Made by a program: the position numbers and the translations under genes. A DNA stretch of 64,000 bases from Novipirellula herctigrandis (lineage in GTDB: Bacteria; Planctomycetota; Planctomycetia; Pirellulales; Pirellulaceae), in contig SJPJ01000001.1 of assembly GCA_007859835.1 (NCBI GenBank), forward strand, positions 4,421,026 through 4,485,025. Reading direction: 5' to 3'. How positions within the stretch are numbered: the stretch's first letter is position 1; each line of letters starts with the position of its first letter. Positions 8,764-34,039 of this stretch are shown one piece after another. The notes under the pieces are model-generated. The model was given only the letters and a program-made list of their open reading frames with translations. It ran no database searches and was not told where the DNA came from.

Positions 8764-9726
8764 CTAAAAGTCATCCGCTCGCCGGTACGCCGCAATCAGT
8801 TTTTGTTCCCCTTCTTTGCCACGTTCGCTTAATCCGTGCTCCATTCCGACGACGCCTTTGAAACCTTTTTGATGGATGTGCTTGAAGACATTTTGGTAGT
8901 TGATTTCGCCTGAATACGGTTCTTTACGTCCCGGGTTATCACCCGATTGGAAATACGCGATCTCGCTCCAGCTTGCGTCAATGTTCGGAATCAAATTGCC
9001 TTCGGTGATCTGCTGATGATAGATGTCGAAGAGGATCTTGCAAGAAGGACTGTTGACCGCTCGGCAAATCGCGTACGCCTGATCGCTTCGCTGCAAGAAA
9101 ACACCACCATGATTGGCGTACCAATTGAGTGGTTCGAGTACCATTACCAATCCGGCGGGTTCGAGGATCTCGGTGCATCGGCGAAGCATATCGATCACGT
9201 TCGCTGTTTGGTAGCCTTCTGCTAATCGGCCGCCACCATAGCGATTCCAATCGTCATCGGCATGTTGTTGATCAACGCTGCCGGGGACGACGGTACACCA
9301 CTTTGCGTTGACGCGTTTAGCGACTTCGATCGCATTCTTCATCGCATCGAGAATCTCAGTGGTCGTTTCTTTCTTGGGACGTGCAAAGGTCGGTTTATCA
9401 AAACTGCCGTATGCAACAAAGACACCCATTTGCATTCCGAGTGAATCAAGCGTTTTGCCGATTTTCTCTTGTAGTTCTGGCGGTTTGCCTGGCATTCCGT
9501 TGTCTTCCCAAGCGGTGAAGCCTTGCTCCGCCGCAAACTTGATTTGGTCGATGACATCGTCGCCCGCCAAGTTGCGGAACATGCCGGCATGTGGCGCATA
9601 GCCAAGTTTGAATGTGTTCGTTGATTTCGCGGGCGGAGCCGCCTCTTGAGCATTCAAGGTCGTCGCTGCTAGTACAGTTGCAGCGGCGGTTGCACCAGTT
9701 GATTTTAGAAAGTGTCTTCGTTGCAT
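8764..9726 (-). CDS. Tat-exported hydroxypyruvate isomerase-like TIM-barrel protein
   Basis: 320 residues beginning MQRRHFLKSTGATAAATVLA, a twin-arginine signal, so a folded protein exported across the inner membrane. The mature part is a xylose-isomerase-like (AP endonuclease 2) TIM barrel: LEPLNWYANHGG, ILFDIYHQQITEG and VGMEHGLSERG supply the Glu, Asp, His and Glu positions expected for a divalent metal site, as in hydroxypyruvate isomerase. Such exported sugar-isomerase-like proteins are abundant in planctomycetes; their true substrates are mostly unknown, so the enzymatic name is provisional. Its start lies inside the 3' end of the polysaccharide deacetylase gene (22-base overlap), so the two are probably co-transcribed. 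Confidence 0.85.
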   Translation of the reverse strand: MQRRHFLKSTGATAAATVLAATTLNAQEAAPPAKSTNTFKLGYAPHAGMFRNLAGDDVIDQIKFAAEQGFTAWEDNGMPGKPPELQEKIGKTLDSLGMQMGVFVAYGSFDKPTFARPKKETTTEILDAMKNAIEVAKRVNAKWCTVVPGSVDQQHADDDWNRYGGGRLAEGYQTANVIDMLRRCTEILEPAGLVMVLEPLNWYANHGGVFLQRSDQAYAICRAVNSPSCKILFDIYHQQITEGNLIPNIDASWSEIAYFQSGDNPGRKEPYSGEINYQNVFKHIHQKGFKGVVGMEHGLSERGKEGEQKLIAAYRRADDF

Positions 9727-10889
9727 AGTGAAAGCGCATCGGGTGTGGAGACAGAAGGGCTTGTGGGAGAGGCGACCTGCATTATAGCGGCCAACTCATG
9801 CAGAGGCCACAAGCGAGCCCGCGAGGCCAAAGAGCCTACGATTCGATCGTCAACGATTTCGAGTTCGTCTCGTTGCCGCCACCAACTTGCCACGTCACGT
9901 GGTAATGCCTTCCAGCAATCCGTCTGCTCGGCAACGTGGTCGAGGAATCGACGATAAATCTCAAGCCGCTTCGGCGAGTCGAGATAATCGGGATGGGTAA
10001 TCACCATCGCCATACCGGCCATGCTTCGTAGGAATTCAAGCTTCTTAAGCCAAATCCGAGGTGTTGTCTCACCAAGTGAAACCATCAGTGTATGGTCTTG
10101 CGGAAGCGTGTAGGGTAGCTCCACAAACTTTCCCACCATAAATGGCCACACCCCGCCAACTCCACCAGGCATCGCCTGAAATGGATCTGTATCGAAGCTC
10201 GACGCGTCGTATTGGACGTCCAAGTCTTGGAGCCATTGGAAATTTCGATGGACCATCGGCGAACGAAAACCAACGCTTCCGTATTTTGCGATCGCCTTAT
10301 TGATGGAACCACTGCGACGCATAAACGTCCGCCGTGATTCGTAAAGGCGACCGTCATGGTTGTATCCCTGAATGCCAACCTCATGGCCCCGCTGTTGCAA
10401 GTCTTTGATGATGCATGGATCGACTTTGTACTTGTAAGGAACCACGTTCCACGACGAACGCAAGCCGAGCTTTTCTTCCATCGCGGCTAACTGGTCAATC
10501 CATTTCATTCCTTGCGCCGTTTCGATGTCATGGGTCAACGAAACCGCCATCTGGAATCCATCGGGCCATGGATGAATGGCAACTGCGTCACCTTCCCTCT
10601 CAATCGCAGTTTGGAAATCATTCAAGAAGTCGATTGGCAAGTACCAAGACTGGGAAACCTCAATCGATTGATTGCGTCCGCGCTGTAGCCATTGCCGCAG
10701 TGGAATCGGGATAAAAGGACGTAACCGATAATAGAGCTTGAATTTTGCGGACAGCACCGCAAGGTGAACATCTCGTTCAAAATGGTCCTGTAGCACTTGG
10801 CCCGCGCGGCCCCCGAAAGCAAAACGCACTCCGGTGGACGAGGGACCAAGCTTGGCTGTTGGCATTTCACCGGAGTCACTCATTTTCAT
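9705..10889 (-). CDS. Polysaccharide deacetylase family protein (NodB-like)
   Basis: 394 residues. The NodB-type fold shows in AVSLTHDIETAQG, whose His-Asp pair fits motif 1, then RGHEVGIQGYNHDG (motif 2 with metal-binding His), VGFRSPMVHRN (motif 3) and MVITHPDYLD near the end. Members remove N- or O-acetyl groups from polysaccharides. A good Shine-Dalgarno (GGAGG) lies upstream of two nearby ATGs at 10889 and 10883; either could start it. It is divergent from the PKS-NRPS genes across 467 bases and close to glycosyltransferase and flippase genes, which suggests action on the polysaccharide made by this locus; deacetylases of this general kind also occur in exosortase-associated exopolysaccharide loci. 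No signal peptide is evident, so it is probably cytosolic. Confidence 0.85.
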   Translation of the reverse strand: MKMSDSGEMPTAKLGPSSTGVRFAFGGRAGQVLQDHFERDVHLAVLSAKFKLYYRLRPFIPIPLRQWLQRGRNQSIEVSQSWYLPIDFLNDFQTAIEREGDAVAIHPWPDGFQMAVSLTHDIETAQGMKWIDQLAAMEEKLGLRSSWNVVPYKYKVDPCIIKDLQQRGHEVGIQGYNHDGRLYESRRTFMRRSGSINKAIAKYGSVGFRSPMVHRNFQWLQDLDVQYDASSFDTDPFQAMPGGVGGVWPFMVGKFVELPYTLPQDHTLMVSLGETTPRIWLKKLEFLRSMAGMAMVITHPDYLDSPKRLEIYRRFLDHVAEQTDCWKALPRDVASWWRQRDELEIVDDRIVGSLASRARLWPLHELAAIMQVASPTSPSVSTPDALSLCNEDTF

Positions 10890-11356: not shown

Positions 11357-14300
11357 ATGGAAGCTCGCTTGAATGAAGCTGTCCTCGCCATTTCTGCAAC
11401 ATTCACAGCCGAGCCTATCCGCTTGCCGCTGTCGGTGTGGTTGCGCGATTTGAATCAGCCGTTTACGGTTAAATTCGCAGCTTACAACCAAGTAATCCAA
11501 TCGTTGATCGATCCTCGCAGTCTGTTGGTTAAAGACGCAGGGGGATTCAATGTACTGCTAATAAGGCTACAGGATTGGACGCAGTCATCAATCGAAGGAT
11601 TGGTTGAACGAGGCAACGAATTCAGCCAAAAGGTGCGCGAGTTTGCGACGCAAAGCTCGAGCCCGACCCTGATTTGTTTTTGCCCAGACTCGCCGGATGC
11701 ACCCGAGCAAGTGTCGCAAATCACGCGACAGGTCGAGCTTCAAATCACGGCCGAGTTGGCGGATGTTGTGGGGCTTTACCTGACGTCGACCAGGGAGTTG
11801 ATGGATACGTACCCCGTTAACGACTACTTTGACAAAGTGGCCGATCGAACGGGCCATGTGCCATACACTCGACCTTTCTACGCCTCGCTGGGAACGATGA
11901 TTACCAGGCGTATTCATGCAATCCTTCGCCCGCCAACGAAGGTTGTCGTGCTCGATTGTGACAACACCCTGTGGAGTGGAGCTTGCGGTGAACTCGGTAG
12001 TCGTGGCGTTGAGGTGGGGGAGCCGTTCCGAAACCTCCAACGTCAGATGCTTGACTTGCGAGCCAACGGAATGCTTCTTGCACTGTGTAGCAAGAACCAT
12101 GAGCAAGATGTATGGGATGTTTTTGAACAGAACCCGTCCATGCTGCTCCGTCGTGAGCATATCGCTGCATCCGAGATTAATTGGAAGCCAAAATCGGAAA
12201 ACCTGCGACAATTGGCTAGCAAACTTGGCCTCGGTCTCGATAGCTTCCTGTTGCTTGACGACAACCACATTGAAATCGCAGAAGTTCGTTCGCGTTGCCC
12301 TTCCGTTCTGGCTATTCAGGTTCCTTCGCCGAATCGGATTCCGTCGTTCCTGCGACATGTTTGGGCACTCGACCGTCCGAAGATAACAACGGACGATCGT
12401 GGTCGAGCAGACGGCTATTTGGCGGAGCTGCAACGCCGAGATGTGCGTCAATCCTCCGTGTCGCTCCGTCAATTCTTGATGGACTTAGAGCTAGTGGTCC
12501 GCTTTGAGCAAGTCAACGAAACAAATCTGGAGCGTATGTCTCAGTTGACCCAGCGAACGAACCAATTTAATAGTTCGCTTCTTCGAAGAACTGGTCCCGA
12601 ACTTCGCGCCCTGGTTTCTTCCTCTGAGTATTTCGCGTTCGCAGTGGATGTGTCGGACAAGTTCGGCGATTATGGCTTTGTCGGTCTTATGCTCTGTCGA
12701 CAACAAGAACGAAGTCTGTTGGTGGATTCGTTCTTGCTAAGTTGCCGTGCACTCGGTCGTGGTGTCGAACATCACATGATGCGTCGATTAGGCGAGCTTG
12801 CACTTGAATTGAATTTAAGCGAGGTGACCTTTCCCTTCGTGTCTGGTGAACGTAACACACCGGCAGCAATCTTTTTGGAAAGTCTTGGCGAGGGTTTCGG
12901 TTCCCAGAGCCTGCAAGGCATTGAATATTGTTTCCCATCGGCATTGCTTAGGCAACTCGATCCTCTGTCGGCAGCGGAGTCGGGACAGAGCGAGGGGCAG
13001 CACACTGCAGTTTCGGTTGCCACGGTTGACTCAACTCCGAGCAGCGGAGATTCGGAAGTTCTAAGCCGAATTGCGACCGACTTCCAATCGGTTGAGCAAA
13101 TCCAAAACTATTTGGCAACATTTGCCGAACCGCGACCTGATTTGAGCGTTTCGTACGTCACTCCAGCGAATGAGATTGAAACCAAACTATCTCGCATTTG
13201 CTCGGAAGTGCTCAATATTTGCCAAGTGGGAACGGACGATTCTCTGCACGACCTCGGAGGCACTTCGCTACATGTCGTGCAAATCCATAGTCAGATTGTT
13301 CAACAGCTTGGTACGGAAATCCCAATCACCGAACTCTATACGTTGTCGACAATTCGCGAGATCGCCAATCGTCTTCAAGGTACAGATAAAACCAGAATGA
13401 CTTCACCTGCGCCGGCGTTGTCGATGCCACAGAACGATTCGCAACATCGCAATTCTTCGGACGGAATCGCAGTGATCGGGATGGCGGGCCGATTTCCTGG
13501 GGCGGACAATGTTGCTCAGTTTTGGGAAAACCTAATCAATGGAGTGAATTCGATAACGGAGATATCCGATGAGGAACTCAATCTTCCGCCGGATAGCCCG
13601 CTGCGAAAACACCCGGGCTTAGTGCGAAAAGCAGCGACCGTCAACGATGCCGATAAGTTCGACGCGAGGTTTTTTGGGATCTTTCCCAAGGAAGCTCAGG
13701 TGATGGATCCACAGCATCGTTTGATGCTTGAAACTTGCTGGCACGCGTTGGAAGATGCGGGCTACTGTCCTGACGCCGTCGATGCTTCGGTTGGAGTTTT
13801 CGCGGGCTGTTATATGAACACCTATACGTTAGCAAGTTTGGCGAGCAACCCGAAACTGCTTGAAAGTTTAGCGAACTCGTTTCACGGTGGCGATTTGCTG
13901 ACGGAACTTGGCAACGATAAAGATTATTTGGCGACGCGAGTTTCGTTTCTATTGAATCTGCGTGGGCCAAGCATGACGGTGCAAACGGCGTGCTCCACTT
14001 CGCTCGTCGCAGTGGTTCAAGCCTGCCAGGCACTGCAATTGTACCAATGCGAAATGGCATTAGCGGGCGGTTCGACGTTGAAACTGCCGCAAAAACGAGG
14101 TTATCTCTACAGCGATGGTGGTATGGTTTCGCCCGACGGCGTTTGCCGGACGTTTGACGCAGACGCCCGCGGAACGGTGTTTGGCGAAGGGGTCGGCGCC
14201 GTCTTGTTGAAGCGAGTCGAGGATGCAGTCGCCGACGGTGACCCGATATACGGCGTCATCCGTGGTTGGGGAATCAACAACGACGGGCATTCAAAGATGG

Positions 14301-16300
14301 GCTATACCGCGCCTAGCGTCGAAGGGCAATCCGAAGCCATTCGAATGGCGCACCGTAAGGCTGGGATTTCTGCCGACTCGATTAGCTATGTCGAAGCTCA
14401 CGGAACCGGAACGGCGCTCGGTGATCCGATTGAAGTGGCTTCGCTAACGAAGGCGTTTCGCGAGACAACCGATCGTAATCAATATTGTGCGATTGGTTCT
14501 CTCAAAACCAACATCGGGCATCTTGATGTGGCTGCCGGCGTGACGGGAATCATCAAGATTTGCCAATCCATGCATCACGGAAAGATTCCTGCGAGTCTGA
14601 ACTTCAATCGACCGAATCCGAATATCGATTTCGAAAGCACGCCGTTCTATGTTGCCACCAAACAACAAGAATGGAAATCGAATGGTACACCACGAAGAGC
14701 TGGCCTCAGTTCGTTCGGTGTCGGGGGAACCAACGCCCACGTGGTTCTCGAGGAAGCGCCGGTGGAACAGCCATCCGCTCCCGCTAGGGGGCCGCAATTG
14801 TTGATGCTTTCTGCACGAAGTCAAGAAACTCTCGACGCGATCACTGCGGATTTAGCCGGTGCGTTGAAACAGCAACCGGAACTCAATCTGGCAGATGTTG
14901 CTTATACGCTCGCCGTCGGTCGAAAAGCACAGAACTATTCACGTATTTTTGTGGCCGATACTCTCGCCGAAGCTCAGGAATTATTGTGTGAACTCAAGAG
15001 CGGTTCCGTTTTCACGCGACATCAGGTGCGTCGCGGCGTGCCGGTTTCGTTCATGTTCCCAGGCCAGGGAGCCCAACACGTCAACATGGCCCGCGGACTT
15101 TATGAGTCCGACAGTGTCTTCCGAGCACACTTTGATGAGTGCTGCGAACTGCTTGAGCCACATATAGGGTTTGATTTAAAGAGCAAGCTGTTTGTCACGG
15201 AATCGGCTGCTGCAAGTAGTGAAGTCAATCAAACCACAATCGCGCAGCCAGCAATTTTTACGGTCTCGTATTCATTGGCGAAACGATTCGAAAACCTCGG
15301 GATCGTTCCCGAGAAAATGATTGGACATAGCGTTGGTGAGTTTGTTGCGGCTTGCTTGGCTGGTGTCTTTTCGCTGCCGGATGCGTTGCGGCTCATTGCA
15401 TTTCGAGCCAAGAGCATGCAGGCGTTGCCGGCCGGCAGTATGTTGGCGGTTCGTTTAACGGAGCCCGAAATCACCGAGCGGCTTGTCGGAACCAATGTCG
15501 AATTGGCTGCGATTAACGGCCCGTCGCTCTGCGTTGTGGCGGGGCCGAGCGAGGCGGTCGAGCAACTGAGGGAAAAGCTTGAATCCGATGAAGTCGTTTG
15601 CCGGCCGCTACATACATCCCACGCATTTCACTCGGAAATGATGCAACCGGCGGTCGAGCCAATGGCGGAACTGTTGAGGGCTCTCGAGTTAAGCCCGCCA
15701 AAAACCCCCATTGTTTCCTCGGTTACAGGCGAAATGCTAACGTCTGCACAGGCGATTGATCCATTGTACTGGTCGATGCACCTGCGTAAAACCGTTAGGT
15801 TCACCGATGCGGTCGAGCGGCTATTAACAGAAAGTGAAAGCTCGTTGTTGGAAGTAGGCGCAGGACAAACGTTGAGTACGTTGGCTCGCCAGCATCCGGC
15901 GTTTCCTGCTAAACGCACCGTGTTGTCATCGCTTCCGCACGCAAAGCTATCCGCTTCAGCGGCAACTCACTTCATGTCGACGCTCGGACGCCTCTGGCAA
16001 TCAGGAACCAACATTGATTGGGAATCGCTATTCGGTGAAGTGCCGCGAAAGCGAGTTCACCTGCCGACTTATCGATTCGAACGAAAACGCTTTTGGTTTG
16101 ATGAAAACACTCAAGGTGATAATACTAATGTTGAAATCAGTCCGCCGGAAACGCCGCAAGCCGCGAAAATGGTGAACGATCAAGCGGATCGAGATACTGA
16201 TAATCGCGTTACAGATGGTGAACAAGATGAAATCATCGAACAAGTCATCAAGCAACAATTGCACTTGATGAAGCAACAACTTGCAGTTTGGAACAGCTAG
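11357..16300 (+). CDS. Hybrid synthase subunit 1: FkbH-ACP-KS-AT
   Basis: 1647 residues. About 1-540 form a complete FkbH-like unit: N-terminal VKFAAYNQVIQSLIDP, the HAD catalytic strand VVVLDCDNTLWSG (about 196-208), TNQFNSSLLRRT, and a C-terminal acetyltransferase-like part with KFGDYGFVGL and SCRALGRGVE. FkbH domains that have been studied turn 1,3-bisphosphoglycerate into glyceryl-ACP. An ACP follows (GGTSLHV, Ser near 637). The ketosynthase starts near 700 with GMAGRFPG, and has Cys878 in TACSTS, His1015 in EAHGTG and His1055 in NIGH. The acyltransferase has GHSVGE (Ser1325) and HAFH at 1422-1425, the malonyl-CoA signature. No KR, DH or ER is present. The C-terminus (EQVIKQQLHLMKQQL) looks like a docking helix. 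The matching ACP sits on the next protein, whose start is within 10 bases. Confidence 0.92.
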   Translation: MEARLNEAVLAISATFTAEPIRLPLSVWLRDLNQPFTVKFAAYNQVIQSLIDPRSLLVKDAGGFNVLLIRLQDWTQSSIEGLVERGNEFSQKVREFATQSSSPTLICFCPDSPDAPEQVSQITRQVELQITAELADVVGLYLTSTRELMDTYPVNDYFDKVADRTGHVPYTRPFYASLGTMITRRIHAILRPPTKVVVLDCDNTLWSGACGELGSRGVEVGEPFRNLQRQMLDLRANGMLLALCSKNHEQDVWDVFEQNPSMLLRREHIAASEINWKPKSENLRQLASKLGLGLDSFLLLDDNHIEIAEVRSRCPSVLAIQVPSPNRIPSFLRHVWALDRPKITTDDRGRADGYLAELQRRDVRQSSVSLRQFLMDLELVVRFEQVNETNLERMSQLTQRTNQFNSSLLRRTGPELRALVSSSEYFAFAVDVSDKFGDYGFVGLMLCRQQERSLLVDSFLLSCRALGRGVEHHMMRRLGELALELNLSEVTFPFVSGERNTPAAIFLESLGEGFGSQSLQGIEYCFPSALLRQLDPLSAAESGQSEGQHTAVSVATVDSTPSSGDSEVLSRIATDFQSVEQIQNYLATFAEPRPDLSVSYVTPANEIETKLSRICSEVLNICQVGTDDSLHDLGGTSLHVVQIHSQIVQQLGTEIPITELYTLSTIREIANRLQGTDKTRMTSPAPALSMPQNDSQHRNSSDGIAVIGMAGRFPGADNVAQFWENLINGVNSITEISDEELNLPPDSPLRKHPGLVRKAATVNDADKFDARFFGIFPKEAQVMDPQHRLMLETCWHALEDAGYCPDAVDASVGVFAGCYMNTYTLASLASNPKLLESLANSFHGGDLLTELGNDKDYLATRVSFLLNLRGPSMTVQTACSTSLVAVVQACQALQLYQCEMALAGGSTLKLPQKRGYLYSDGGMVSPDGVCRTFDADARGTVFGEGVGAVLLKRVEDAVADGDPIYGVIRGWGINNDGHSKMGYTAPSVEGQSEAIRMAHRKAGISADSISYVEAHGTGTALGDPIEVASLTKAFRETTDRNQYCAIGSLKTNIGHLDVAAGVTGIIKICQSMHHGKIPASLNFNRPNPNIDFESTPFYVATKQQEWKSNGTPRRAGLSSFGVGGTNAHVVLEEAPVEQPSAPARGPQLLMLSARSQETLDAITADLAGALKQQPELNLADVAYTLAVGRKAQNYSRIFVADTLAEAQELLCELKSGSVFTRHQVRRGVPVSFMFPGQGAQHVNMARGLYESDSVFRAHFDECCELLEPHIGFDLKSKLFVTESAAASSEVNQTTIAQPAIFTVSYSLAKRFENLGIVPEKMIGHSVGEFVAACLAGVFSLPDALRLIAFRAKSMQALPAGSMLAVRLTEPEITERLVGTNVELAAINGPSLCVVAGPSEAVEQLREKLESDEVVCRPLHTSHAFHSEMMQPAVEPMAELLRALELSPPKTPIVSSVTGEMLTSAQAIDPLYWSMHLRKTVRFTDAVERLLTESESSLLEVGAGQTLSTLARQHPAFPAKRTVLSSLPHAKLSASAATHFMSTLGRLWQSGTNIDWESLFGEVPRKRVHLPTYRFERKRFWFDENTQGDNTNVEISPPETPQAAKMVNDQADRDTDNRVTDGEQDEIIEQVIKQQLHLMKQQLAVWNS

Positions 16301-16310
16301 GGACACAAAA

Positions 16311-19300
16311 TTGGGAAAACTTCTTACTGGAACGAGCGACCGAAAAGCGTCAGCAGAATCTGCGATTGGATCATTGCTGAGTGAGGCGTCGGGTTTTGAG
16401 CTCAGCGAACTTGATCAGGAAGCTTCCTTTGCGGAACTGGGGCTCGACTCGTTGTTTCTTGTGCAGTTCAGCCAGAAGATCAAGAGTCAGCTAAAAGTAA
16501 AAGTGACGTTTCGTCAGCTGATCGAAGAGATCCCCACGATCAACGCGTTAATTGCGTATGTCGCTCAGCGCCTTCCCGATGAGTTTGTCGTGGGGGGACA
16601 GCCTGCTGAAACGCCCGCTACCGAACCGATCGTTGTCAACGAACCATCGGTGATAGCAGATTCGAGCCAGCCCACAAACACGGCGTCTGCTGATCTTTCG
16701 GCTCCGCCTATTCATCCGGCTTCGCCTGTTATTCCGAATCCACCCGATATTCGGAATTTACCCGTGCAAGCCGCGGCGGCGCTGCCACCGATGCCGATTG
16801 GCACCGGACCAAGTGCAGCTCAGGATCGAGCGAGTCTGTCGCAAATTATTGCACAGCAAAACGAATTGATGAGTTTGCAGTTGCAACTCCTCGCTGGGGC
16901 AAGACCTGCTGCGCCGACACCCTCCACCAGAGCATCCGCGGTCGCGCCGCAGGTCTCCCAAACGGCAAGTCCCTCGGTAAGCAGTTCAGCAAGCAGCTCG
17001 CAAATTAGCTCGGCAAGCCCCTCTCCAAACGGCTCGACAAAGCCCGTCGTGTCCGCACCGCTCGACTCCGCTCCCAAGACGCAAATTCTCGAGCGATTTG
17101 GACCGTTCAAACCGGTTCGTCGTGCGCCCGATGGTGGGCTAACTGACCAACAACAGCGTCATCTCGATAACTTGATTGCTCGTTTTACAAATCGCACTGC
17201 CAAGTCGCGCAAGCATGCGCAGCAACACCGTGGTCACTTTGCCGACCCGCGCGGCGTCGCTGGTTATCGACGGATTTGGAAAGCGATGGTTTATCAAATT
17301 TCCGTGGACCGATCCAAAGGCAGCAAGCTATGGGACATCGACGGAAACGAATACATCGACATTGCCATGGGCTTTGGGTTGAACCTATTCGGCCAGTCAC
17401 CCGACTTTATCACCGAAGCGATTGCGAAGCAGTTAGCAAAGGGTGTCGAAGTCGGCCCGCAATCGCCACTTGCTGGTGAAGTTGCCCAACTGCTCTGTGA
17501 CTTTTCAAGAAAGAGTCGCGTTTCGTTCTGCAACACTGGCTCCGAAGCCGTGATGGCGGCGATGCGTTTAGCCAGAACTGTGACAGGCAAATCAAAGATC
17601 GTTTTCTTCAACAAAGACTATCACGGCAATTTTGATCAGGTTCTTGTTCGGTCGATAACGATGGGTAACAAGCGACGCTCGCAGCCCGCTGCGCCGGGCG
17701 TCCCGCAACCATTAGCCGATCTCACAATCGTCCTTGATTATGGGACCGACGAAGCGTTACAAGCGATTCGTGACAACGCTGATGACATTGCTGCTGTTTT
17801 GGTTGAACCTGTGCAGAGTGCAAATCCTTTTATGAAGCCGAAGGCATTCTTGCAGGAGGTTCGGCAGATCACCGAGGAAAATGACATCGCCTTGATCATG
17901 GACGAGGTCATTACCGGGTTTCGAGCCGCGCCGGGTGGTGCCCAGGAATGGTTTGGCGTTTGGGGCGACATGGCAACTTATGGGAAAGTCCTCGGTGGCG
18001 GATTGCCGATCGGTGCGTTGGCAGGCTCCGCCAAATACATGGATGCACTTGATGGCGGCAATTGGCGCTACGAAGACGATTCCGAACCAACGGCAGATAT
18101 GACGTTCTATGCCGGAACATTTGTGCGACACCCGCTCGCGATCACTGCGGCACACCAAGTATTAATGAAGGTGAAAGAATCAGGCCCAGAGCTCCAAAAG
18201 GGACTTACTGAAAAGACAACCTACCTTGTCGATTCGCTGAATCAATTCTTTGAAAAAGAACTCTATCCCCTTCGCGTTGCCCAGTTCACTTCGCTATTTC
18301 GCTTCATGTTTCCACCAACGATGGAATATGCGGACTTGCTCTACTTCCACCTCTTGGATCGAGGTGTTTTTACACGCGGTTGGGGTGATAATTGTTTCTT
18401 GTCGACGGCACACAGCGATACGGACATCGAGCGGATTATCGAAGCAGTAAAAGACAGTTGCAATGAGATTCGTGAAGGTGGTTTCTTGCCCGACCCTCGG
18501 TCTTCCGATACTCAGAAAATCGAAAGTTCAGCGACGACGCAATCGCCGCTATTCGAAAAAAAAAAGTGTCTGAGATTCCCGCTGACCGAAGCCCAGCTTG
18601 AAATTTGGGTCACGTCTCAAATGGGAAATGAGGCTTCGTGTTCATACAATGAACCGTTTTCGGTTCGTTTTCGGGGCCAGTTGAACTGTGCGATTCTATG
18701 TGATGCGATTCAAACAGTTGTTGCCAGACACAAGACGCTCCACTATCGCATTGCCGCGGATGGGCAATACCAAGAAGTACATAATCCACAGCCAGTCACG
18801 ATTGACCGGCACGATCTTCGCGGTATCCCATCGGACCAGCAAAACACCTCGCTCGCCGAATTCGCTGGCACACTTGGTTCAAAGTCGTTCGACTTTTCAG
18901 CGGGACCGCTGATCCGTTTGGCATTGACCCAATTAGCCGATGACGAGCACATCCTATTCGTTTCTGCGCACCATATCGTTAGTGATGGTTGGTCGACAAA
19001 CTTGATGTTGTCGGAAATCGCCGAGGCCTATACGGCGACTGCCGAACAGCGTGATATTCAGTTGGCCGAACCTGCTGACTATCGCGATTACGCAGCGATG
19101 GAATTGGCGGCCCAGGATGAATCCACCGAGGCGCTCTCTTATTGGAGGGACCAATACCGCGACCCGCCAGCCCCGCTCGAATTGCCCGTTGACCGTCCTC
19201 GCCCCGCTGTAAAGAGCTTTGCTGGTAGTACGTTGATCCATCATTTTAAGGATGACACCTATCAGGCGATGAAGAAAACAGCAGCGGAGAAAAAGGTGAC

Positions 19301-22300
19301 GCTGTTTTCGATGACGTTTGCTGTACTAAACGTCCTGCTTGCTCGGTTGTCCGGTCAGGACGATATCGTTGTTTCAATTCCCACCGCAGGTCAAGTCTTG
19401 CAGGTGAATCAATGTCTTGTTGGCCACTGCGTGAATCTGTTGCCGATACGGTCGCAAATCAAGTTGGACGATTCGTTTGATCGATTCCTGGTTGCTACCC
19501 AAACACAAGTTCTCGACGGCTTCGACCACCAGCAATGTACGCTTGGCAAGATTGTTCGCGAGTTGCGGATTCCGCGTGATCCCAGTCGACTGCCACTGGT
19601 CGAGATCAACTTTAACTTTGACCGCGATGGAATGGGTCTAGAGTTTCCAAGCTTGGAAGTCGAGGTTGCACAAACGGTCAAACGAGCATCAACATTCGAC
19701 CTGTTCTTTAACTTGAACGAAACTGCGGATGGTTTGGAGCTATATCTCGACTACAGTACTGCCCTATATGACGAAGACACGATTCGCCGATGGGTGGGGC
19801 ATTATGAAACATTGTTGCAAGAGATTGCGAAAGATCCGTCGCAGTCATTGGGTGAGATTAGTCTGCTCAGTGACCATGAACGTCATCAGATTCTTGTCGA
19901 TTGGAACAGTACGAATACTGTCCATTCTAATGCAAAACCAGTTCACAATATGTTCGAGCAACAAGTTCACTCGACACCAGGTCGAGTTGCTGTGGTTGCT
20001 GATGATCGCCAATTTTCTTACCAACAAATCAACGAACTCGCAAATGGGCTGGCCCGTCATCTTCAATCCGTTGGCGTGAACTCCGGGGATCTTGTTGGCG
20101 TCCATTTAGAACGTTCCGAGTGGATGGTCATTGCAACCCTCGCCATTTTGAAAGCGGGGGCGGCGTATGTGCCGCTTGACCCGAACTTCCCCGCTAAACG
20201 ACTTGCAATGATGGCGGAAGATGCGGAGTTGTCCGTGATTGTGACTCAGCAGTCGCTTCCTACTGCTGAGATCGCTCCGCATGCAAATCGCATTCTAGTG
20301 GATGAGGATTTGCATGAATCGTTTGCAGCGGATGTTGCAAACCTTGAAGTTTCTATTTCGCCAGACCAAGTCGCCTACGTGATCTATACGTCTGGTTCCA
20401 CGGGAAAGCCGAAGGGAGTGGAGATTGGTCACAGTTCGCTGACGAATTTCCTGTGCTCGATGCAGCATCAACCGGGATTGAATGAGAACGATGTTCTATT
20501 GAGTGTCACGACGCTTTCTTTTGATATCGCGGCATTGGAGATCTTTTTGCCGATTGTAAGCGGTGCACGTGTCGTTTTAGTTTCGAGTGAGGAGGCTATG
20601 GATGGCCCGCGTCTGAGTCAGCACATTGAAGCACTACAAACGACGGTGATGCAAGCGACGCCGGCCACTTGGAAAATGCTCATCGATTCGGGGTGGCATG
20701 GCAAGCAAGGATTGAAAATTCTGTGTGGCGGTGAAGCGATGCCCAATGCGCTTGCTCGCGAATTACTTGATCGTGGTGATTCGGTGTGGAATTTGTATGG
20801 ACCAACCGAAACGACGATTTGGTCGACGGTTCGTCAAATTCAGTCGAGTGAAACGGTTAACATCGGACATCCGATTGCGAATACGGAAATCTTTGTTTTA
20901 GACGAACGCCACCGACCAGTACCGATTGGAGTGGCAGGGAGAATGTTTATCGGTGGATCAGGGTTGGCACACGGGTATCGACATTTACCTGAACTCACCG
21001 CCGAAAAGTTCATCGCCCATCCGTTTCGGAATCAATCGGAGTTGCGGATCTATGATACGGGCGACCAAGCTCGATATCGGGCTGATGGCACATTGGATTT
21101 TCTTGGCCGGCTCGACCATCAAGCCAAGATCCGAGGCTTCCGAATTGAACTCGATGAAATCGAGCATGAACTGTCGAAGCATCCCGATTTAAACCAGGCC
21201 GTCGTTGTGGTTAGTCCGGATGGTGAGGACGCATCGCTTGTGGCGTATTGTGTACCCGATCCCCATTCGGAGTCGCCATCGCCATTGGATTTACGAGAAT
21301 TTCTACGTCAAACGTTGCCTGAATACATGATCCCGTCGATCTTTGTCATGTTGCAAGAGTTGCCGATGACGCCGAATCGGAAAGTCGATCGCCGTGCATT
21401 GCCTAAGCCAGTTTTGGATCGTGAGCAATTATCAGTCGGATACACGGCTCCGCGAGACCACACGGAAATGGAAATCGCCAATATTTGGAAACGCACATTG
21501 AAGTTGGATCGGATTGGACGGGATGACGACTTTTTTGATGCAGGTGGCCACTCATTGCTCGCCGCTCGAATGATGCTCGAACTTGAAAAACGATTCGGAG
21601 AACGGGTACCGCTGGCGACTTTGTTGACTGCGCCAACGGTCCGACAATTTGCCGAGCTCATGAAGCGGAAAGATTGGAGGCCAAGATGGCACTGTTTGGT
21701 GCCAATACAAGAACGCGGCAACAAACCGCCTCTGTTTTGTGTTCATGCAGCACACGGCAATGTGATGCTCTATCGTGAATTGGCGATGCGACTTGGCGAT
21801 GATCAACCTGTTTATGGATTGCAGTCGCGAGGTCTTGATGGAGAGCTTTCCGTTCACACCACGATTCGTGATATGGCTTCGGAGTACGTCGAGGAAATTC
21901 GCAAAGTCCAACCCAACGGCCCTTATCATCTTTGCGGCTACTGTCTGGGAGGAGCGATCGCTTATGAAATGGCGCAACAATTGTCGGCCGAGGGTGAAGA
22001 AATCGAACTGCTTGGGCTCTTTGACACCACGACGGAACAGTTCAAAGAGACCTTTGTTTCAGCAAACTACCGACGACTGCAAAACATTGGTTTTCATGCC
22101 GCGAATTTGGTCCGCCGTGGTCCCCGTGGCGCTTATGCGTTCCTGAGGGGTAAGCTTGCTGAGCTTCGCAGTCGGTTGTTTCGTAGAACGGCGGTTTCCT
22201 ATTCAAGCATCGCGTGTGCATTGAAACTTCGTGAAAACCCGCCGCTGCAATTGTTGGAAAGGATCAATGACAAAGCAAATGAGTCTTACGTTCCGCAACG

Positions 22301-22568
22301 TTATGGTGGCCGAGTGACGCTGTTTAGACCATGCAAAGCCTATGCCGGTTACGAAGATCCATCGCTGGGGTGGGGAAACGGACTCGTTGATGATCTTGAG
22401 GTGGTCGAATTAGATGTTTATCCCGCCGGGATGTTGATGGAACCGTATGTCCAAGATTTGGCGAGTCAAGTTCAGCGTCGTTTGAGTCCGCACCAATGGG
22501 GTGTGCCGGAAAAGTCCATTCAGAATGGCGTTTCGTTGGAACGAGTCAAGGAATCGTTCGTGCAATGA
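16311..22568 (+). CDS. Hybrid synthase subunit 2: ACP-aminotransferase-C-A-PCP-TE
   Basis: 2085 residues from the TTG at 16311, seven bases after AGGGA; another TTG at 16281 overlaps the previous gene. Order: ACP (LGLDSLF, Ser47); Pro/Ala/Ser linker about 105-265; class III aminotransferase about 300-725 with FCNTGSEAV and PLP Lys559 in YGKVLGGG; condensation domain about 753-1180 with HHIVSDG at 887; adenylation domain about 1189-1700 with YTSGSTGKPKG, YGPTETT and PNRKVDR; PCP (GGHSLL, Ser1748); thioesterase from about 1794 with GYCLGG, nucleophile Cys1878. The aminotransferase-in-line layout is that of mycosubtilin-type synthases, which convert a beta-ketoacyl-ACP to a beta-aminoacyl-ACP. 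The eight pocket residues read give the glycine code. Expected product: a beta-amino acyl-glycine. A run of ten A at 18556-18565 lies between two domains. Confidence 0.92.
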   Translation: MGKLLTGTSDRKASAESAIGSLLSEASGFELSELDQEASFAELGLDSLFLVQFSQKIKSQLKVKVTFRQLIEEIPTINALIAYVAQRLPDEFVVGGQPAETPATEPIVVNEPSVIADSSQPTNTASADLSAPPIHPASPVIPNPPDIRNLPVQAAAALPPMPIGTGPSAAQDRASLSQIIAQQNELMSLQLQLLAGARPAAPTPSTRASAVAPQVSQTASPSVSSSASSSQISSASPSPNGSTKPVVSAPLDSAPKTQILERFGPFKPVRRAPDGGLTDQQQRHLDNLIARFTNRTAKSRKHAQQHRGHFADPRGVAGYRRIWKAMVYQISVDRSKGSKLWDIDGNEYIDIAMGFGLNLFGQSPDFITEAIAKQLAKGVEVGPQSPLAGEVAQLLCDFSRKSRVSFCNTGSEAVMAAMRLARTVTGKSKIVFFNKDYHGNFDQVLVRSITMGNKRRSQPAAPGVPQPLADLTIVLDYGTDEALQAIRDNADDIAAVLVEPVQSANPFMKPKAFLQEVRQITEENDIALIMDEVITGFRAAPGGAQEWFGVWGDMATYGKVLGGGLPIGALAGSAKYMDALDGGNWRYEDDSEPTADMTFYAGTFVRHPLAITAAHQVLMKVKESGPELQKGLTEKTTYLVDSLNQFFEKELYPLRVAQFTSLFRFMFPPTMEYADLLYFHLLDRGVFTRGWGDNCFLSTAHSDTDIERIIEAVKDSCNEIREGGFLPDPRSSDTQKIESSATTQSPLFEKKKCLRFPLTEAQLEIWVTSQMGNEASCSYNEPFSVRFRGQLNCAILCDAIQTVVARHKTLHYRIAADGQYQEVHNPQPVTIDRHDLRGIPSDQQNTSLAEFAGTLGSKSFDFSAGPLIRLALTQLADDEHILFVSAHHIVSDGWSTNLMLSEIAEAYTATAEQRDIQLAEPADYRDYAAMELAAQDESTEALSYWRDQYRDPPAPLELPVDRPRPAVKSFAGSTLIHHFKDDTYQAMKKTAAEKKVTLFSMTFAVLNVLLARLSGQDDIVVSIPTAGQVLQVNQCLVGHCVNLLPIRSQIKLDDSFDRFLVATQTQVLDGFDHQQCTLGKIVRELRIPRDPSRLPLVEINFNFDRDGMGLEFPSLEVEVAQTVKRASTFDLFFNLNETADGLELYLDYSTALYDEDTIRRWVGHYETLLQEIAKDPSQSLGEISLLSDHERHQILVDWNSTNTVHSNAKPVHNMFEQQVHSTPGRVAVVADDRQFSYQQINELANGLARHLQSVGVNSGDLVGVHLERSEWMVIATLAILKAGAAYVPLDPNFPAKRLAMMAEDAELSVIVTQQSLPTAEIAPHANRILVDEDLHESFAADVANLEVSISPDQVAYVIYTSGSTGKPKGVEIGHSSLTNFLCSMQHQPGLNENDVLLSVTTLSFDIAALEIFLPIVSGARVVLVSSEEAMDGPRLSQHIEALQTTVMQATPATWKMLIDSGWHGKQGLKILCGGEAMPNALARELLDRGDSVWNLYGPTETTIWSTVRQIQSSETVNIGHPIANTEIFVLDERHRPVPIGVAGRMFIGGSGLAHGYRHLPELTAEKFIAHPFRNQSELRIYDTGDQARYRADGTLDFLGRLDHQAKIRGFRIELDEIEHELSKHPDLNQAVVVVSPDGEDASLVAYCVPDPHSESPSPLDLREFLRQTLPEYMIPSIFVMLQELPMTPNRKVDRRALPKPVLDREQLSVGYTAPRDHTEMEIANIWKRTLKLDRIGRDDDFFDAGGHSLLAARMMLELEKRFGERVPLATLLTAPTVRQFAELMKRKDWRPRWHCLVPIQERGNKPPLFCVHAAHGNVMLYRELAMRLGDDQPVYGLQSRGLDGELSVHTTIRDMASEYVEEIRKVQPNGPYHLCGYCLGGAIAYEMAQQLSAEGEEIELLGLFDTTTEQFKETFVSANYRRLQNIGFHAANLVRRGPRGAYAFLRGKLAELRSRLFRRTAVSYSSIACALKLRENPPLQLLERINDKANESYVPQRYGGRVTLFRPCKAYAGYEDPSLGWGNGLVDDLEVVELDVYPAGMLMEPYVQDLASQVQRRLSPHQWGVPEKSIQNGVSLERVKESFVQ

Positions 22569-23644
22569 CACAAATTGAATTACAATCCAGACGCAATGAT
22601 CCTGTCGAGGACATGCCAAATCCGCGAGGTTCACTCGAACGTATTCCACTTGCGCGGTGGCAAGAGTTTGTAAACACGCAGCCTGAGAGAACCATTTTTC
22701 ATCACGCACGCTGGTTAAGTTTGATCAGCAAACAGTACAAATTCCCAGCGCACATTTACGCTTGGGTTAAAGCAGGTGAAGTGATGGCAGGTCTTCCGTT
22801 CTTAGGAACGAGTACGCTGCGGAGACAAAGAAAACTTGTCTCGCTTCCTTTTACCGACAATCTGCGGGTGCTTGGTTCCGATGCGGAAAGTCTGCTGGCT
22901 CTGCGCGATGGTCTCAAAGCAACCAATTTCTCTTCGTATTACTGTGTCGTCAATAAAACCGACCAACCACTTGGATTTAGCTGCACACCCAGTGGCATTG
23001 TTCGGCACGAACTCGATCTAACAAGATCAATGTCAGAAATTGAACGGGGTTATGCCAGAAGTTTGAAATCGAATCTTCGAAAGGGTCAAAAAGCAAACCT
23101 TCAGTTCAGTGTTAGCCAAGATGCAGCGGCACTTGATACCTTCTATCAAATACATGTCAAGACACGGCATCGGTTAGGTATTCCCGTCCAGCCTAGAAGC
23201 TTCTTCAATCGCCTCTATCGGGAACTTATAGCGACCGGTCTCGGTTTTGTGGCGACAGTATCCCATCAAGGCGATCCTGTTTCGGTGGGCGTGTTTCTGG
23301 TTTACGGGAAGACGATGGTTTTCAAGTACGCAGCATCCGAATTAGCAGCCCTTCATTTACGGCCCAATGATTTTCTTGTCGGCAACGCTATCTGTGATGC
23401 GGTGGACCGTTCACTCGACACATTCGATTTCGGTACCTCCCGTGAGGTCGAAACCGGACTTCGTCGATTCAAGCGTAAATGGGGTGCAACGGAGTATCCG
23501 CTCTTCAATGATTGCGTTGTCGGAAATGTCGCCATCAATCGCTCTGATTCGCTGGCAATGACGTTCGCACGAGCAACGATTCGCCACACGCCATCCATCG
23601 TCTGCCGAACCGCTGGCAAGATTCTGTACCGATACAATACGTAG
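22565..23644 (+). CDS. FemAB-like / GNAT-fold N-acyltransferase
   Basis: 359 residues from the ATG at 22565, which overlaps the synthase stop as ATGA, so it is very likely co-translated with the PKS-NRPS; an upstream in-frame start inside the synthase gene is rejected. The second half is the typical double-GNAT core: ARSLKSNLRKGQKANLQF, then FYQIHVKTRHRLGIPVQP, then DPVSVGVFLVYGKTMVFKYAAS, FDFGTSREVETGLRRFKRKWG. Relatives include FemX-type aminoacyl transferases of peptidoglycan and acyltransferases found in exosortase-type exopolysaccharide loci. The tight coupling suggests that it transfers either the synthase product or another acyl group to an amine or sugar; this is inference. No signal peptide, so cytosolic. 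Confidence 0.85.
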   Translation: MTQIELQSRRNDPVEDMPNPRGSLERIPLARWQEFVNTQPERTIFHHARWLSLISKQYKFPAHIYAWVKAGEVMAGLPFLGTSTLRRQRKLVSLPFTDNLRVLGSDAESLLALRDGLKATNFSSYYCVVNKTDQPLGFSCTPSGIVRHELDLTRSMSEIERGYARSLKSNLRKGQKANLQFSVSQDAAALDTFYQIHVKTRHRLGIPVQPRSFFNRLYRELIATGLGFVATVSHQGDPVSVGVFLVYGKTMVFKYAASELAALHLRPNDFLVGNAICDAVDRSLDTFDFGTSREVETGLRRFKRKWGATEYPLFNDCVVGNVAINRSDSLAMTFARATIRHTPSIVCRTAGKILYRYNT

Positions 23645-23821: not shown

Positions 23822-25030
23822 CTACCGGACGATACCGAACAAACCATCATAGAGTGCGACAAGGTGCACCGATTGATGCTTCCAGGTCAATCCGTTGTCG
23901 ATTCGCGACCGAGCAATCTCGCCCATGGACGCTCGTAAAGATGGATCATCCATCAATTGGATAACGAAATCGGCAAACTCGGATACATCGTTTTTGTGGG
24001 CGTAGAAGGCCGCGTCGCCTGCGGTTAGTTGGTTTTCACGCGTGCTGAAACATACTGTCGGCTTTCGTAGTGCCATGTACTCCATTGTTTTGATCGTCGT
24101 ACAGCTGTCGTTGTATGCGTTGCTCGGGTCTGGGGTTAGGCAAATGTCGAACGCTGCGATATGCGAGGGAACCGATGTAAATGGAATGCCGCCGGTAAAA
24201 TGGACTAAGTCTTGTACGTCCAACTCAACCGCTAGGTCTTTGAGGCTCTTTAATGCTGGCCCATTGCCGACAATGACGGCCAGGAAATCATCACGACCGT
24301 GAGCGATTCTCAATTCCTTCACGACTCGGATAACGTTGTCAACTCCGTCCTGGATGCCGATGGCTCCGACATACCCCAACAGGATTTTACCACGGTCCAA
24401 CAAGTCTTTACTGGGCTGAACGTCATTCAGGAAAAGACGATTCGGCCCGTTGCGAACGATGTAGCAATGTTCTTCTTTAGCACCACATCGATCGACTTGT
24501 ACGCTTTTTTGGCTTTCGTTCGTTGCGATCAATCGGTTTGCTGATCTGCACGCCAATCGCTCAAAAAAGCGGAGTACTTTGTAGATGAAATTAGGCTGGT
24601 TATCGTCACGGCGAGCCAAATAGAGTTCAGGAGAGAGGTCATGCAAATCAAATACAAACGATTTCCCCAGCAGTTTGTAAAAGATCGCGATCATGGCCGT
24701 CATGTCAGGCGGTGTGTGAACATGCACCACATCGAAACCGTGGCGCACAAAGACATAGACAGACCCTAAGAATAATGCGGTTAAGCTGTACCCATATTCT
24801 AAAACGTAGCCGAGAAAACCGTGTGCCTCAAAAGGCTGGGGGTACCGATACACGCGGCAGCCTGCAACACGTTCGGCCCACTTCTGCGAGTCGCCGGTTG
24901 GACAAATCACGGTTAAATCGTATCCAGCCGCCATCAATGACTCGGCCTCTAGCATCACGCGAACGTCATCAGGATAGCTCTGATTTTCCAGCAGCATTAA
25001 GATACGATTCGGCTTCACAGACGATTTCAT
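23822..25030 (-). CDS. Glycosyltransferase family 4 protein
   Basis: 402 residues with a GT-B fold. N-terminal RILMLLENQSYPDDVRVMLE is the usual opening, VVHVHTPPDM and FVFDLHDLSPELY belong to the acceptor domain, and the donor domain carries LLGYVGAIGIQDGVDN and TTIKTMEYMALRKPTVCF, the last being the usual E-containing nucleotide-sugar motif region. Retaining transfer of a hexose-type sugar from a nucleotide donor is expected; donor and acceptor cannot be told. It is the last gene of the six-gene minus-strand polysaccharide operon and converges on the FemAB-like gene across 177 bases, where only weak hairpins are seen (for example CAGTGG/CCACTG at 23754-23770). Confidence 0.9.
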   Translation of the reverse strand: MKSSVKPNRILMLLENQSYPDDVRVMLEAESLMAAGYDLTVICPTGDSQKWAERVAGCRVYRYPQPFEAHGFLGYVLEYGYSLTALFLGSVYVFVRHGFDVVHVHTPPDMTAMIAIFYKLLGKSFVFDLHDLSPELYLARRDDNQPNFIYKVLRFFERLACRSANRLIATNESQKSVQVDRCGAKEEHCYIVRNGPNRLFLNDVQPSKDLLDRGKILLGYVGAIGIQDGVDNVIRVVKELRIAHGRDDFLAVIVGNGPALKSLKDLAVELDVQDLVHFTGGIPFTSVPSHIAAFDICLTPDPSNAYNDSCTTIKTMEYMALRKPTVCFSTRENQLTAGDAAFYAHKNDVSEFADFVIQLMDDPSLRASMGEIARSRIDNGLTWKHQSVHLVALYDGLFGIVR

Positions 25031-25046
25031 TGAGAATCCAAGGGTC

Positions 25047-26201
25047 TTACTTACAAAGTGACTTCATGATCGCTTCGGTTCGTTTCGCATTGTTGGGTGA
25101 GAAACGTTCTTCGGCAATCTCACGATTGCGAATTCCCATCTGACGTCGTAGGGGTTCCGATTGATAGACCTGCAGCAACGCATCCGCCAATCCATTGACA
25201 TCCTTCTCATCGACCAAAATCTGCTCGACAATCGCAGGGATCTCGACATGGCGAGTGCTGATGACCGGTTTGCCGCACGCCATTGCTTCGATGATGACCG
25301 TCGGAAAACCTTCAGCGGCACCGAACTCATCGAAATGGCTCGGCAAACAAAACACATCACAAGCATGATAGACAGCTCGTAAAGCCGTATTCGAAAGTCC
25401 TCCAAAGAATGCGATTTGGGACTCGATGCCCATGTCCTTCGCCAAACCCTTTAGATCTACCGAGTCAACTGAATCACGGCCCGTCCCCACAACCCATACT
25501 TCAAATCGTTCATCGTTGAGTTTTTGAATTGCTTCAAACAGAATCCGGTGCCCCTTCTTCTGGGCAAAGTAACCCACGATCAGGACGATGAACTTTTCCT
25601 CCGGTCGATAGGTTTCCAAGTCGACGGATAGTCGTACGACTTCGACCTTGTCGGGGGCAATGCCAAAACGCTGTTGTAACTGGTTGCGATTGTAGTCAGT
25701 GACGGTTGTGATCTGGTCACACGCAGCGATTGCACGAGCAAACATTGCCTCATTAGGGTTGTCGTATATTTCGTACGCGTGAATCGTACACATTAGTGGC
25801 TTGCCAAGAAGTTGTTTGCAGAAGTAGCTAATGAATAGCTTTCGATCACCAAAGGTGGCATAGATCAGGTCGACATCTTTCATCTTGCCTGAAAAGTGAA
25901 CCGCGATCACAAAATCAATCACCGATCGATATCGGATCGCTTCAATGAGCAACTGGACATACTTGACCGGATGTGAAAACAGCACTATCCACTGTGCGAA
26001 AAACAGCGAAAGAAAATTCCAGCGATAGACGTTCCAAGTTTCACGAGGACCGTAGAGCCCATTTTGGTACTTCGTTGGATAAACACTAATGGTGGCACCA
26101 CGATCCTCCAAGAAGGAAAGTTCTCGATGGACAAAGTGCTCAAAGCCATGTTTTACCGATGCAACGGCACCAACGTGGATCGACTGATCGGTTTGCATCA
26201 T
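25047..26201 (-). CDS. Glycosyltransferase family 4 protein
   Basis: 384 residues, GT-B fold. VASVKHGFEHFVHRELSFLE opens the acceptor domain, CTIHAYEIYDNPNEAMF follows, and the donor domain shows VLIVGYFAQKKGHRILFEAI and the canonical PTVIIEAMACGKPVIST with its catalytic-region glutamate. Family 4 enzymes of this kind build repeat units of capsules and exopolysaccharides on an undecaprenyl lipid. Two adjacent ATGs (26201 and 26198) can start it; the stop of the upstream transferase overlaps them, so translation is coupled. It sits 16 bases before the next transferase. Sugar specificity is unknown. Confidence 0.9.
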   Translation of the reverse strand: MMQTDQSIHVGAVASVKHGFEHFVHRELSFLEDRGATISVYPTKYQNGLYGPRETWNVYRWNFLSLFFAQWIVLFSHPVKYVQLLIEAIRYRSVIDFVIAVHFSGKMKDVDLIYATFGDRKLFISYFCKQLLGKPLMCTIHAYEIYDNPNEAMFARAIAACDQITTVTDYNRNQLQQRFGIAPDKVEVVRLSVDLETYRPEEKFIVLIVGYFAQKKGHRILFEAIQKLNDERFEVWVVGTGRDSVDSVDLKGLAKDMGIESQIAFFGGLSNTALRAVYHACDVFCLPSHFDEFGAAEGFPTVIIEAMACGKPVISTRHVEIPAIVEQILVDEKDVNGLADALLQVYQSEPLRRQMGIRNREIAEERFSPNNAKRTEAIMKSLCK

Positions 26202-28865: not shown

Positions 28866-28872
28866 AGCAATA

Positions 28873-33360: not shown

Positions 33361-34039
33361 TCAGAACATGTCGGTTGAACAGAAAACGAAGCGATCGAGT
33401 CGCATTCCTATTGGCGATCTGGACGAGCGTTATTTGGCGCTTGTCCGGCAGGTTACTGCGTCGGATCCCTTCAAGCGTGATGATGATTCACGCGTGTTGG
33501 GAGTTACCAGTTCTCTGTCGGGTGAAGGAACCACGACCGTTGCTGCGAACATTGCGTTGACGGTGGCCGGAATGGCGTCTGGTCCAGTGTTATTGGTGGA
33601 TGCGAATGACCTGCGTCCAAGTTTGCATAAAGTGTTCGGTCTCAAAAATACAATAGGCTTCCAGAACGCTCTGTCGGGCGGTCATTCGCCGCTAGAGTGC
33701 ATCACGCCAACTGTCTTTGAAGGTCTCTCTCTGACCCTGAGCGGGAAACTGGCCGATGGCGAAGTGGCTCTCTACAGTAACTCGTCCATCGACGAACTTC
33801 TGGACGAGTGGCGAGACACGTTTCGTTGGATCATTTTCGATCTACCACCATCCAATAACGTGACCAGCGGTGCGTTGTTGGCTAGTAGGATGGATGGTGC
33901 ATTGATGGTTGTCGAGGCGGATCGGGTGGACCGTAAAATTGCCGAACGCACTTCGGCGCGACTCCGCCGAGCCCACGCGAATCTTCTCGGCGCGGTCTAT
34001 AACAAAGTCCCCAAACACGCAGGCGACTTGGCGTGGTAG
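33350..34039 (+). CDS. CpsD/BY-kinase-like P-loop protein with altered Walker A
   Basis: 229 residues from the ATG at 33350; another ATG at 33368 is possible. The fold is that of the bacterial tyrosine kinase/MinD group: VLGVTSSLSGEGTTTVAANI at the P-loop, Walker A' VLLVDANDLRPSLH and Walker B WIIFDLPPSNN. However, the P-loop reads GEGTTT, whereas active kinases have GEGKST or GEGKTT, so the nucleotide-contacting lysine is missing. There is also no C-terminal tyrosine cluster. It may still partner the Wzz-like protein as a structural or nucleotide-sensing subunit rather than a kinase. The missing lysine is read directly from the codons GGA ACC ACG ACC. Confidence 0.85.
   Translation: MSVDQNMSVEQKTKRSSRIPIGDLDERYLALVRQVTASDPFKRDDDSRVLGVTSSLSGEGTTTVAANIALTVAGMASGPVLLVDANDLRPSLHKVFGLKNTIGFQNALSGGHSPLECITPTVFEGLSLTLSGKLADGEVALYSNSSIDELLDEWRDTFRWIIFDLPPSNNVTSGALLASRMDGALMVVEADRVDRKIAERTSARLRRAHANLLGAVYNKVPKHAGDLAW

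Follow-up and report, generated by a model that had tools for sequence, protein, structure and literature searches.

Mycosubtilin synthase MycA, of the iturin family, carries acyl carrier protein (ACP), aminotransferase (AMT), condensation (C), adenylation (A), and peptidyl carrier protein (PCP) domains in the order ACP-AMT-C-A-PCP. The same order occurs in a compact polyketide synthase (PKS)-nonribosomal peptide synthetase (NRPS) line of the planctomycete Novipirellula herctigrandis, which lies in the 64,000-nucleotide stretch analyzed here (the window; assembly GCA_007859835.1, contig SJPJ01000001.1, positions 4,421,026 to 4,485,025 of the forward strand). MycA starts from a fatty acid via an acyl ligase and serves a larger multi-module lipopeptide; AMTs of its type convert a carrier-bound beta-keto group to a beta-amine. 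In the Nod factor pathway (NodB, NodA, and NodE-NodF), a deacetylase unmasks an amine, and a dedicated carrier-bound chain then supplies its acyl group. FkbH domains are described as loading 1,3-bisphosphoglycerate and dephosphorylating it to glyceryl (PMC8949500). The thioesterase (TE) of Pks13, a Ser1533 enzyme (S1533A), is described as releasing its chain onto polyols, preferably trehalose (PMC9210659). SulM and ObiF, according to two reports, are NRPSs for small products whose TEs have a Cys nucleophile and a catalytic His after the last strand (SulM His2956, ObiF His1284; PMC11298585, PMC6668435). In this study, we propose that the window line is a synthase for an acyl group placed on an amino sugar of an exopolysaccharide, with its TE as the transferase, a reading to which we give about an even chance.

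The line comprises two proteins, which are listed here with the terminal TE domain.

11357..16300, + strand: PKS protein FkbH-ACP-KS-AT (KS, ketosynthase; AT, acyltransferase), 1647 amino acids, from Pfam/NCBIfam and motifs
16281..22568, + strand: PKS-NRPS protein ACP-AMT-C-A-PCP-TE, 2095 amino acids, first in-frame start TTG, from Pfam/NCBIfam and motifs
21672..22565, + strand: TE domain, Cys nucleophile (domain residue 91), loop following the last strand lacking His

The compact PKS-NRPS line is real. Chance frames are excluded by the length of the two open reading frames with whole-domain matches and by the AMT, which is 70-100% identical in 20 of 199 genomes of the same family (own genome counted). 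In the first protein, the FkbH domain scored 298 bits with TIGR01686 (cut-off 147), followed by PP-binding, KS, and AT matches. The second protein matched PP-binding (two stretches), Aminotran_3 (188 bits), C (294 bits), A (299 bits), and the thioesterase family PF00975 (101 bits, above cut-off, with the match confined to the first half of the model). The KS Cys and both His-bearing KS motifs, the carrier Ser motifs, the pyridoxal phosphate (PLP) Lys motif, and the C-domain HHxxxDG are legible in the translations. This order, including the lack of any reductive domain, had been given in a preliminary description of the locus and was borne out by the domain calls. The single span 11357-23644 that it assigned to the line holds for 11357-22568; the part 22496-23644 is a separate FemAB/GNAT open reading frame, for which an ATG at 22562 looks the likelier start.

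The predicted chemistry follows from the domains and rests on family knowledge for the glyceryl, malonyl, beta-amine, and Gly assignments. The FkbH motifs (HAD motif DxDxTLW, CSKN, DDN, and the Cys of LSCRALGR) are invariant in all ten aligned domains, window included, and with the TIGR01686 score they identify a glyceryl-type starter; the glyceryl group would be carried by the conserved Cys. The AT motifs GHSVGE and HAFHS are presumably those of malonyl specificity. The best Protein Data Bank (PDB) match of the AMT was MycA (6kfm, 448 bits), and the next family, glutamate-semialdehyde aminomutase, scored 201 bits; identity to the bacillomycin D BamA aminotransferase is 47.5%. The PLP-lysine motif YGK[VI]LGGG is present in 19 of the 20 close genomes, window included, and the contig of the other (G177) ends before the site. 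With a class III AMT placed after an ACP and a KS and with the PLP lysine, the line is a MycA-type beta-transaminating PKS-NRPS; with an FkbH start and a single NRPS module, it falls outside the iturin family proper.

The A domain reads DILQLGLIWK at what we take to be the ten GrsA code positions, and we assume that a DILQLG-type code means glycine. A Gly-type code was found in eight of the nine non-starter A domains read (window counted), as DILQLGMIWK in G197, G140, G063, and G183 and as DILQLGMVWK in G025, G046, and G166. No matches were obtained in a literature search with the code letters, the coverage of which, here and below, leaves out most subscription journals. LgrA module 2, presumably Gly-specific, was dropped as evidence; the specificity region resembles LgrA modules 1 and 2 about equally. 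The C3 starter, single malonyl extension, beta-keto to beta-amino conversion, and condensation with glycine of the preliminary description are all supported. The best collinear prediction is a carrier-bound (3-amino-4,5-dihydroxypentanoyl)-glycine, and the compound named earlier is upheld as this carrier-bound chain, not as a free or cyclized released metabolite.

That the line ends in a TE was correct, but the TE is not a standard one. It has the type I fold (an alpha/beta hydrolase with the nucleophile after strand 5), as judged from PF00975, an AlphaFold2 (AF2) model (pLDDT 80.4, pTM 0.81), and Foldseek matches to TEs of NRPSs, PKSs, and fatty acid synthases, such as 7crn, Pks13, and NocB; the Pks13 TE is among its sequence matches too. 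The window TE has its nucleophile in GYCLGG and VYPAGMLMEP as the loop following the last strand. A TE profile was built from 11 TEs and run on the 199 genomes, with at most 11 candidates scored per genome. At E 1e-30, 71 genomes matched. A score gap sets off a class of 24 genomes with at least 212 bits from the next best at 154; they are the 20 genomes with a close AMT plus G052, G065, G046, and G166. Cys91, His142, Asn145, Lys161, Tyr206, and Pro251 are invariant in all 24 TEs. Column 118 holds Asp in 12 and Glu in 12, and Asp200 and Arg168 are kept in 22. The loop His of the Ser/Cys-His-Asp triad is missing in 22 of the 24, the window TE among them. Ser stands in place of Cys in all six lower-scoring TEs that were fetched, and a His is present in the loop of the two in which this part was covered. 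In the model, Cys91 comes after strand 85-90, and helices 128-148 and 192-205 contain His142 and Asp200, respectively. His142 with Asp200 or Asp/Glu118 may replace the lost His, or attack by an amine may need no base.

The TE class is inherited together with two other proteins: p394, a NodB/CE4-like carbohydrate deacetylase encoded divergently from the synthase with 467 bases in between, and GTa, a GT4 glycosyltransferase. Searches of the 199 genomes at E 1e-60 (AMT), 1e-20 (p394), 1e-60 (GTa), and 1e-40 (FemAB) found the AMT in 34 genomes (14 at 44-50% identity, besides the close ones), p394 in 31, and GTa in 30. By Fisher tests, whose p values take no account of kinship, p394 occurs in 24/24 TE-class genomes vs 7/175 others (p 5e-25), GTa in 22/24 vs 8/175 (p 1e-20), and GTa in 29/31 p394 genomes vs 1/168 others (p 2e-31). 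Only G051 and G132 have p394 without GTa, and in G051 a GT4 protein 25% identical to GTa adjoins p394. Within genera, for which counts cover the members in the match lists and further members may exist without any match, TE, p394, and GTa are all-or-none in g29 (all in 2/4), g45 (2/13), and g46 (2/3). In g67, p394 and GTa occur without the TE in 5/9. The 44-50% AMTs were rejected as being of the same type; p394 is present in just 2 of those 14 genomes. Beyond the family, the AMT at E 1e-90 was found in 11 of 392 phylum-sample genomes (own counted; the other ten at 44-56%), and p394 matched 7 of the 391 others at 30-40% over part of the protein. Among the best 80 matches of a named-genome AMT scan were Neorhodopirellula pilleata Pla100, Roseimaritima sediminicola JC651, and several planctomycete metagenome-assembled genomes (MAGs); the remaining matches among these 80 were at most 56% identical, apart from a partial 66% match. 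That match (L184) is on a contig labeled Rhodothermaceae and may be a transfer or a misbinned MAG. In the source genome itself, a second aminotransferase-like stretch (32%, one stop) precedes an A-PCP stretch at C1:5958804-5961968.

The three genes need not be neighbors. In 13 of the 24 genomes, at most 30 kb separates the TE from p394 or GTa; in G006, G103, and G072, its distance from both is 0.2-1.1 Mb on a single contig, and the other eight have them on different contigs. This distribution bears on the alternative in which a beta-aminoacyl-glycine, linear or cyclized, leaves the line as a free, ordinary small secondary metabolite and the polysaccharide genes are mere neighbors. Canonical collinear logic favors such a release, MycA-type lines elsewhere release peptides, and the 11 loci without observed linkage, three of them far apart on one contig, fit it as well. 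However, TE, p394, and GTa are co-inherited irrespective of linkage, nearly all TEs of the class have lost the loop His, and the chemistry of the line changes while TE and p394 remain. We consider a free product unlikely, and the simple release foreseen in the preliminary description finds the same facts against it. Because the usual His is lost in 22 of 24 TEs and a deacetylase and a glycosyltransferase of polysaccharide loci accompany the TE in inheritance even when unlinked, a glycan-bound product looks likelier than a free one.

The change in chemistry was read by typing the 20 close genomes against the window proteins. The C-A-PCP part is present in eight (in G170 its beginning, at a contig cut) and missing in ten; the contigs of G132 and G177 are cut. 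The starter part is FkbH in ten, A-PCP in one (G037), not recognized in six, and cut in three. G065 has A-PCP-KS-AT-KR-PCP-TE adjoining GTa and p394, without a close or 44-50% AMT; its starter A code is DFWNIGMVHK, which we take to be that of Thr. The lines of G046 and G166 read PCP-KS-AT-ACP-C-A-PCP-TE, and no AMT match was obtained for them. As judged from domain content, the line varies in its predicted starter, in beta-amino or beta-hydroxy, and in whether Gly is included, whereas the TE and the deacetylase are retained. These two constant parts, an almost constant glycosyltransferase, and a changeable acyl builder suggest that an unmasked amino sugar is acylated.

The synthase lies in a polysaccharide locus, of which the part 23822-34039 encodes four GT4-type glycosyltransferases. 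The neighboring features are as follows.

9705..10889, - strand: p394, NodB/CE4-like carbohydrate deacetylase, from a profile match to 3rxz and motif order
22496..23644, + strand: FemAB/GNAT (Acetyltransf_6) protein, PF13480 62 bits; TIGR03019 119 bits, under the cut-off of 260
23822..25030, - strand: GTa, GT4 glycosyltransferase, from Pfam
25047..26201, - strand: GT4 glycosyltransferase, from Pfam
26198..27472, - strand: GT4 glycosyltransferase, from Pfam
27411..28865, - strand: Wzy-like polymerase/ligase, PF04932 45.8 bits
28873..30297, - strand: possible Wzx-like flippase, weak matches to MATE (31.8 bits) and MurJ (18 bits), both under cut-off
30294..31430, - strand: GT4-like glycosyltransferase, from Pfam
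31753..33360, + strand: Wzz-like chain length protein, PF02706 28.9 bits (cut-off 25.5)
33341..34039, + strand: CpsD/BcsQ-like ATPase of polysaccharide export, PF06564 27.6 bits (cut-off 21.3)

An exosortase-type (XrtA/PEP-CTERM) locus was ruled out; the nearest exosortase of the genome is about 1.15 Mb away. Farther along, at 36608-43045 on the - strand, a 2145-amino-acid protein holds two UvrA_inter and two UvrA_DNA-bind stretches by Pfam, that is, two UvrA units in one chain.

Window p394 had no Pfam match, and one relative matched DUF2334 under the cut-off. A profile of 17 p394 homologs run against the PDB matched the polysaccharide deacetylase 3rxz (E 5e-12), so p394 is related in sequence to solved polysaccharide deacetylases. 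The motifs THDxE, (H or Q)GYNHDG, GFRxPMxHR, FDxD, and THPDY occur in this order; we assume that they correspond to those of NodB-like enzymes and that the second is the HxxxH motif. Its first His is kept in 14 of the 17 printed rows that cover the site (29 sequences aligned). A single open frame encodes both GTa and p394 in G023, G025, and G170. A gene run in G006, read by Pfam as hexapeptide transferase, DegT aminotransferase, Wzz/kinase-like, Wzy, Wzx, and two glycosyltransferases, ends with GTa. G103 has a similar run, by similarity, with the first gene read differently, and G046 has part of these genes with GTa, also by similarity.

A glycosyltransferase-deacetylase pair, sharing an open frame in three genomes, could serve a small glycoconjugate, with GTa as the glycosylating enzyme and p394 as the deacetylase of a sugar that is linked to the chain in a compound of low molecular weight instead of a polymer. 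Mycothiol and bacillithiol are the analogy. The polymer genes argue otherwise, as GTa sits in loci with Wzy, Wzx, and Wzz/kinase-like genes in the window and G006 and, by similarity, in G103 and partly in G046. We regard a small glycoconjugate as distinctly unlikely.

Another candidate for the transfer step is the FemAB/GNAT protein with its relatives, in which case the acyl group would reach the polysaccharide through it and the TE would only free or proofread the chain. Proteins of the FemAB type are aminoacyl transferases. The window protein has relatives in 8 of the 199 genomes (own counted), all eight with p394, and further GNAT proteins adjoin synthase, GTa, or p394 at other loci. But at least 16 of the 24 TE genomes lack a close relative, and four of the eight FemAB genomes are TE genomes. 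In the stretches read for G028, G140, G197, G006, and G103, neither of these two GNAT clusters is represented, and the TE class is constant there. The protein was rejected as a fixed partner on its presence in just eight genomes, and as the transferase it is the most doubtful of the alternatives.

Several further genes were noted near these proteins. Neighbors were scanned in two of the seven p394 genomes without the TE, and FemAB and PEP mutase genes were found in G151 and an ATP-grasp gene in G187. A PEP mutase gene at L147:7304-8320 lies near p394 and FemAB in a polysaccharide-like locus, possibly for a phosphonate decoration; gene lengths in L149 and L150 resemble those of L147. At L138:7102-9354, ATP-grasp and phosphatidylserine-decarboxylase-like genes lie between GTa and p394. 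Formyl transferase-like genes lie beside the synthase in G162 (L038:2505-3413) and near p394 in G051 (L137:7258-8034). Giant proteins with 14 DUF11 stretches are encoded near p394 in G046 (L143:4342-11061) and G166 (L148:2435-9079).

Under the proposal of TE-mediated acylation, FkbH would load glyceryl on the first ACP, KS-AT would add one malonyl unit, and the AMT would convert the beta-keto group to a beta-amine. The NRPS module would then join the chain to glycine, yielding the carrier-bound (3-amino-4,5-dihydroxypentanoyl)-glycine. GTa would add the acceptor sugar to the exopolysaccharide repeat, p394 would strip its N-acetyl group, and the Cys-TE would pass the acyl group to the resulting amino sugar. 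The missing His would slow hydrolysis and keep the Cys thioester for attack by the amine. The transfer to a sugar, the identity of that sugar, and the role of the TE rather than the GNAT/FemAB protein as transferase are what we infer from sequence and gene distribution.

Besides the kinship ignored by the Fisher values, the following observations weigh against this proposal. The window, G087, and G037 have Gln for the first HxxxH His of p394, a substitution that may lower its activity, and an AF2 model of p394 from four sequences reached a pLDDT of 46. Two TEs, those of G046 and G166, carry a His in the loop, at column 252, and have neither Asp200 nor Arg168. The A code of G087 deviates (DIAQITLIWK). 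Linkage of the TE to p394 or GTa was not seen in 11 of the 24 genomes, and the confinement of the window FemAB to p394 genomes makes it a competing transferase candidate. In g24 (n = 11), five genomes have all three genes, two have p394 and GTa only, one has GTa only, and three have none. As p394 and GTa occur together in seven genomes without such a TE, they can presumably work with another donor.

A broader form of the proposal, which we advance tentatively and hold somewhat short of probable, is that interchangeable mini PKS-NRPS lines, whose sole fixed part is a Cys-TE without the usual His, diversify a surface glycan, the TE acylating an amino sugar unmasked by a NodB-like enzyme. If true, some small Pirellulaceae PKS-NRPS loci that would be mined as sources of free metabolites are part of the biology of surface glycans, with polysaccharide hydrolysates rather than culture extracts as the place to look for their products. 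A TE class with an altered active site favoring amine transfer would also be useful to enzymology.

Compared with known systems, the line is nearest to MycA, the best PDB match of its AMT. It differs from MycA in starting with FkbH, in its single Gly, in ending in a Cys-TE that lacks the usual His, and in lying among polysaccharide genes. Its FkbH domain shares the HAD motif DxDxTLW and the conserved Cys with those of the vioprolide and cystomanamide lines; unlike in those lines, it is coupled to KS-AT, an AMT, and one Gly module in two proteins. Unlike SulM and ObiF, 22 of 24 members of the TE class lack the loop His; in the class, a His and an Asn of the lid are invariant and an Asp is nearly so. 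The Pks13 TE is a precedent for chain transfer from a PKS TE to a sugar, with mycolate and trehalose as substrates and Ser rather than Cys. The proposed scheme resembles the logic of Nod factors, from which the window differs in its polymer locus with Wzx and Wzy. In the literature searched, with the coverage given above, no report was found of this combination of parts with this TE class or of assembly-line chemistry diversifying a surface glycan. All parts have known relatives; the combination and the TE class are apparently new.

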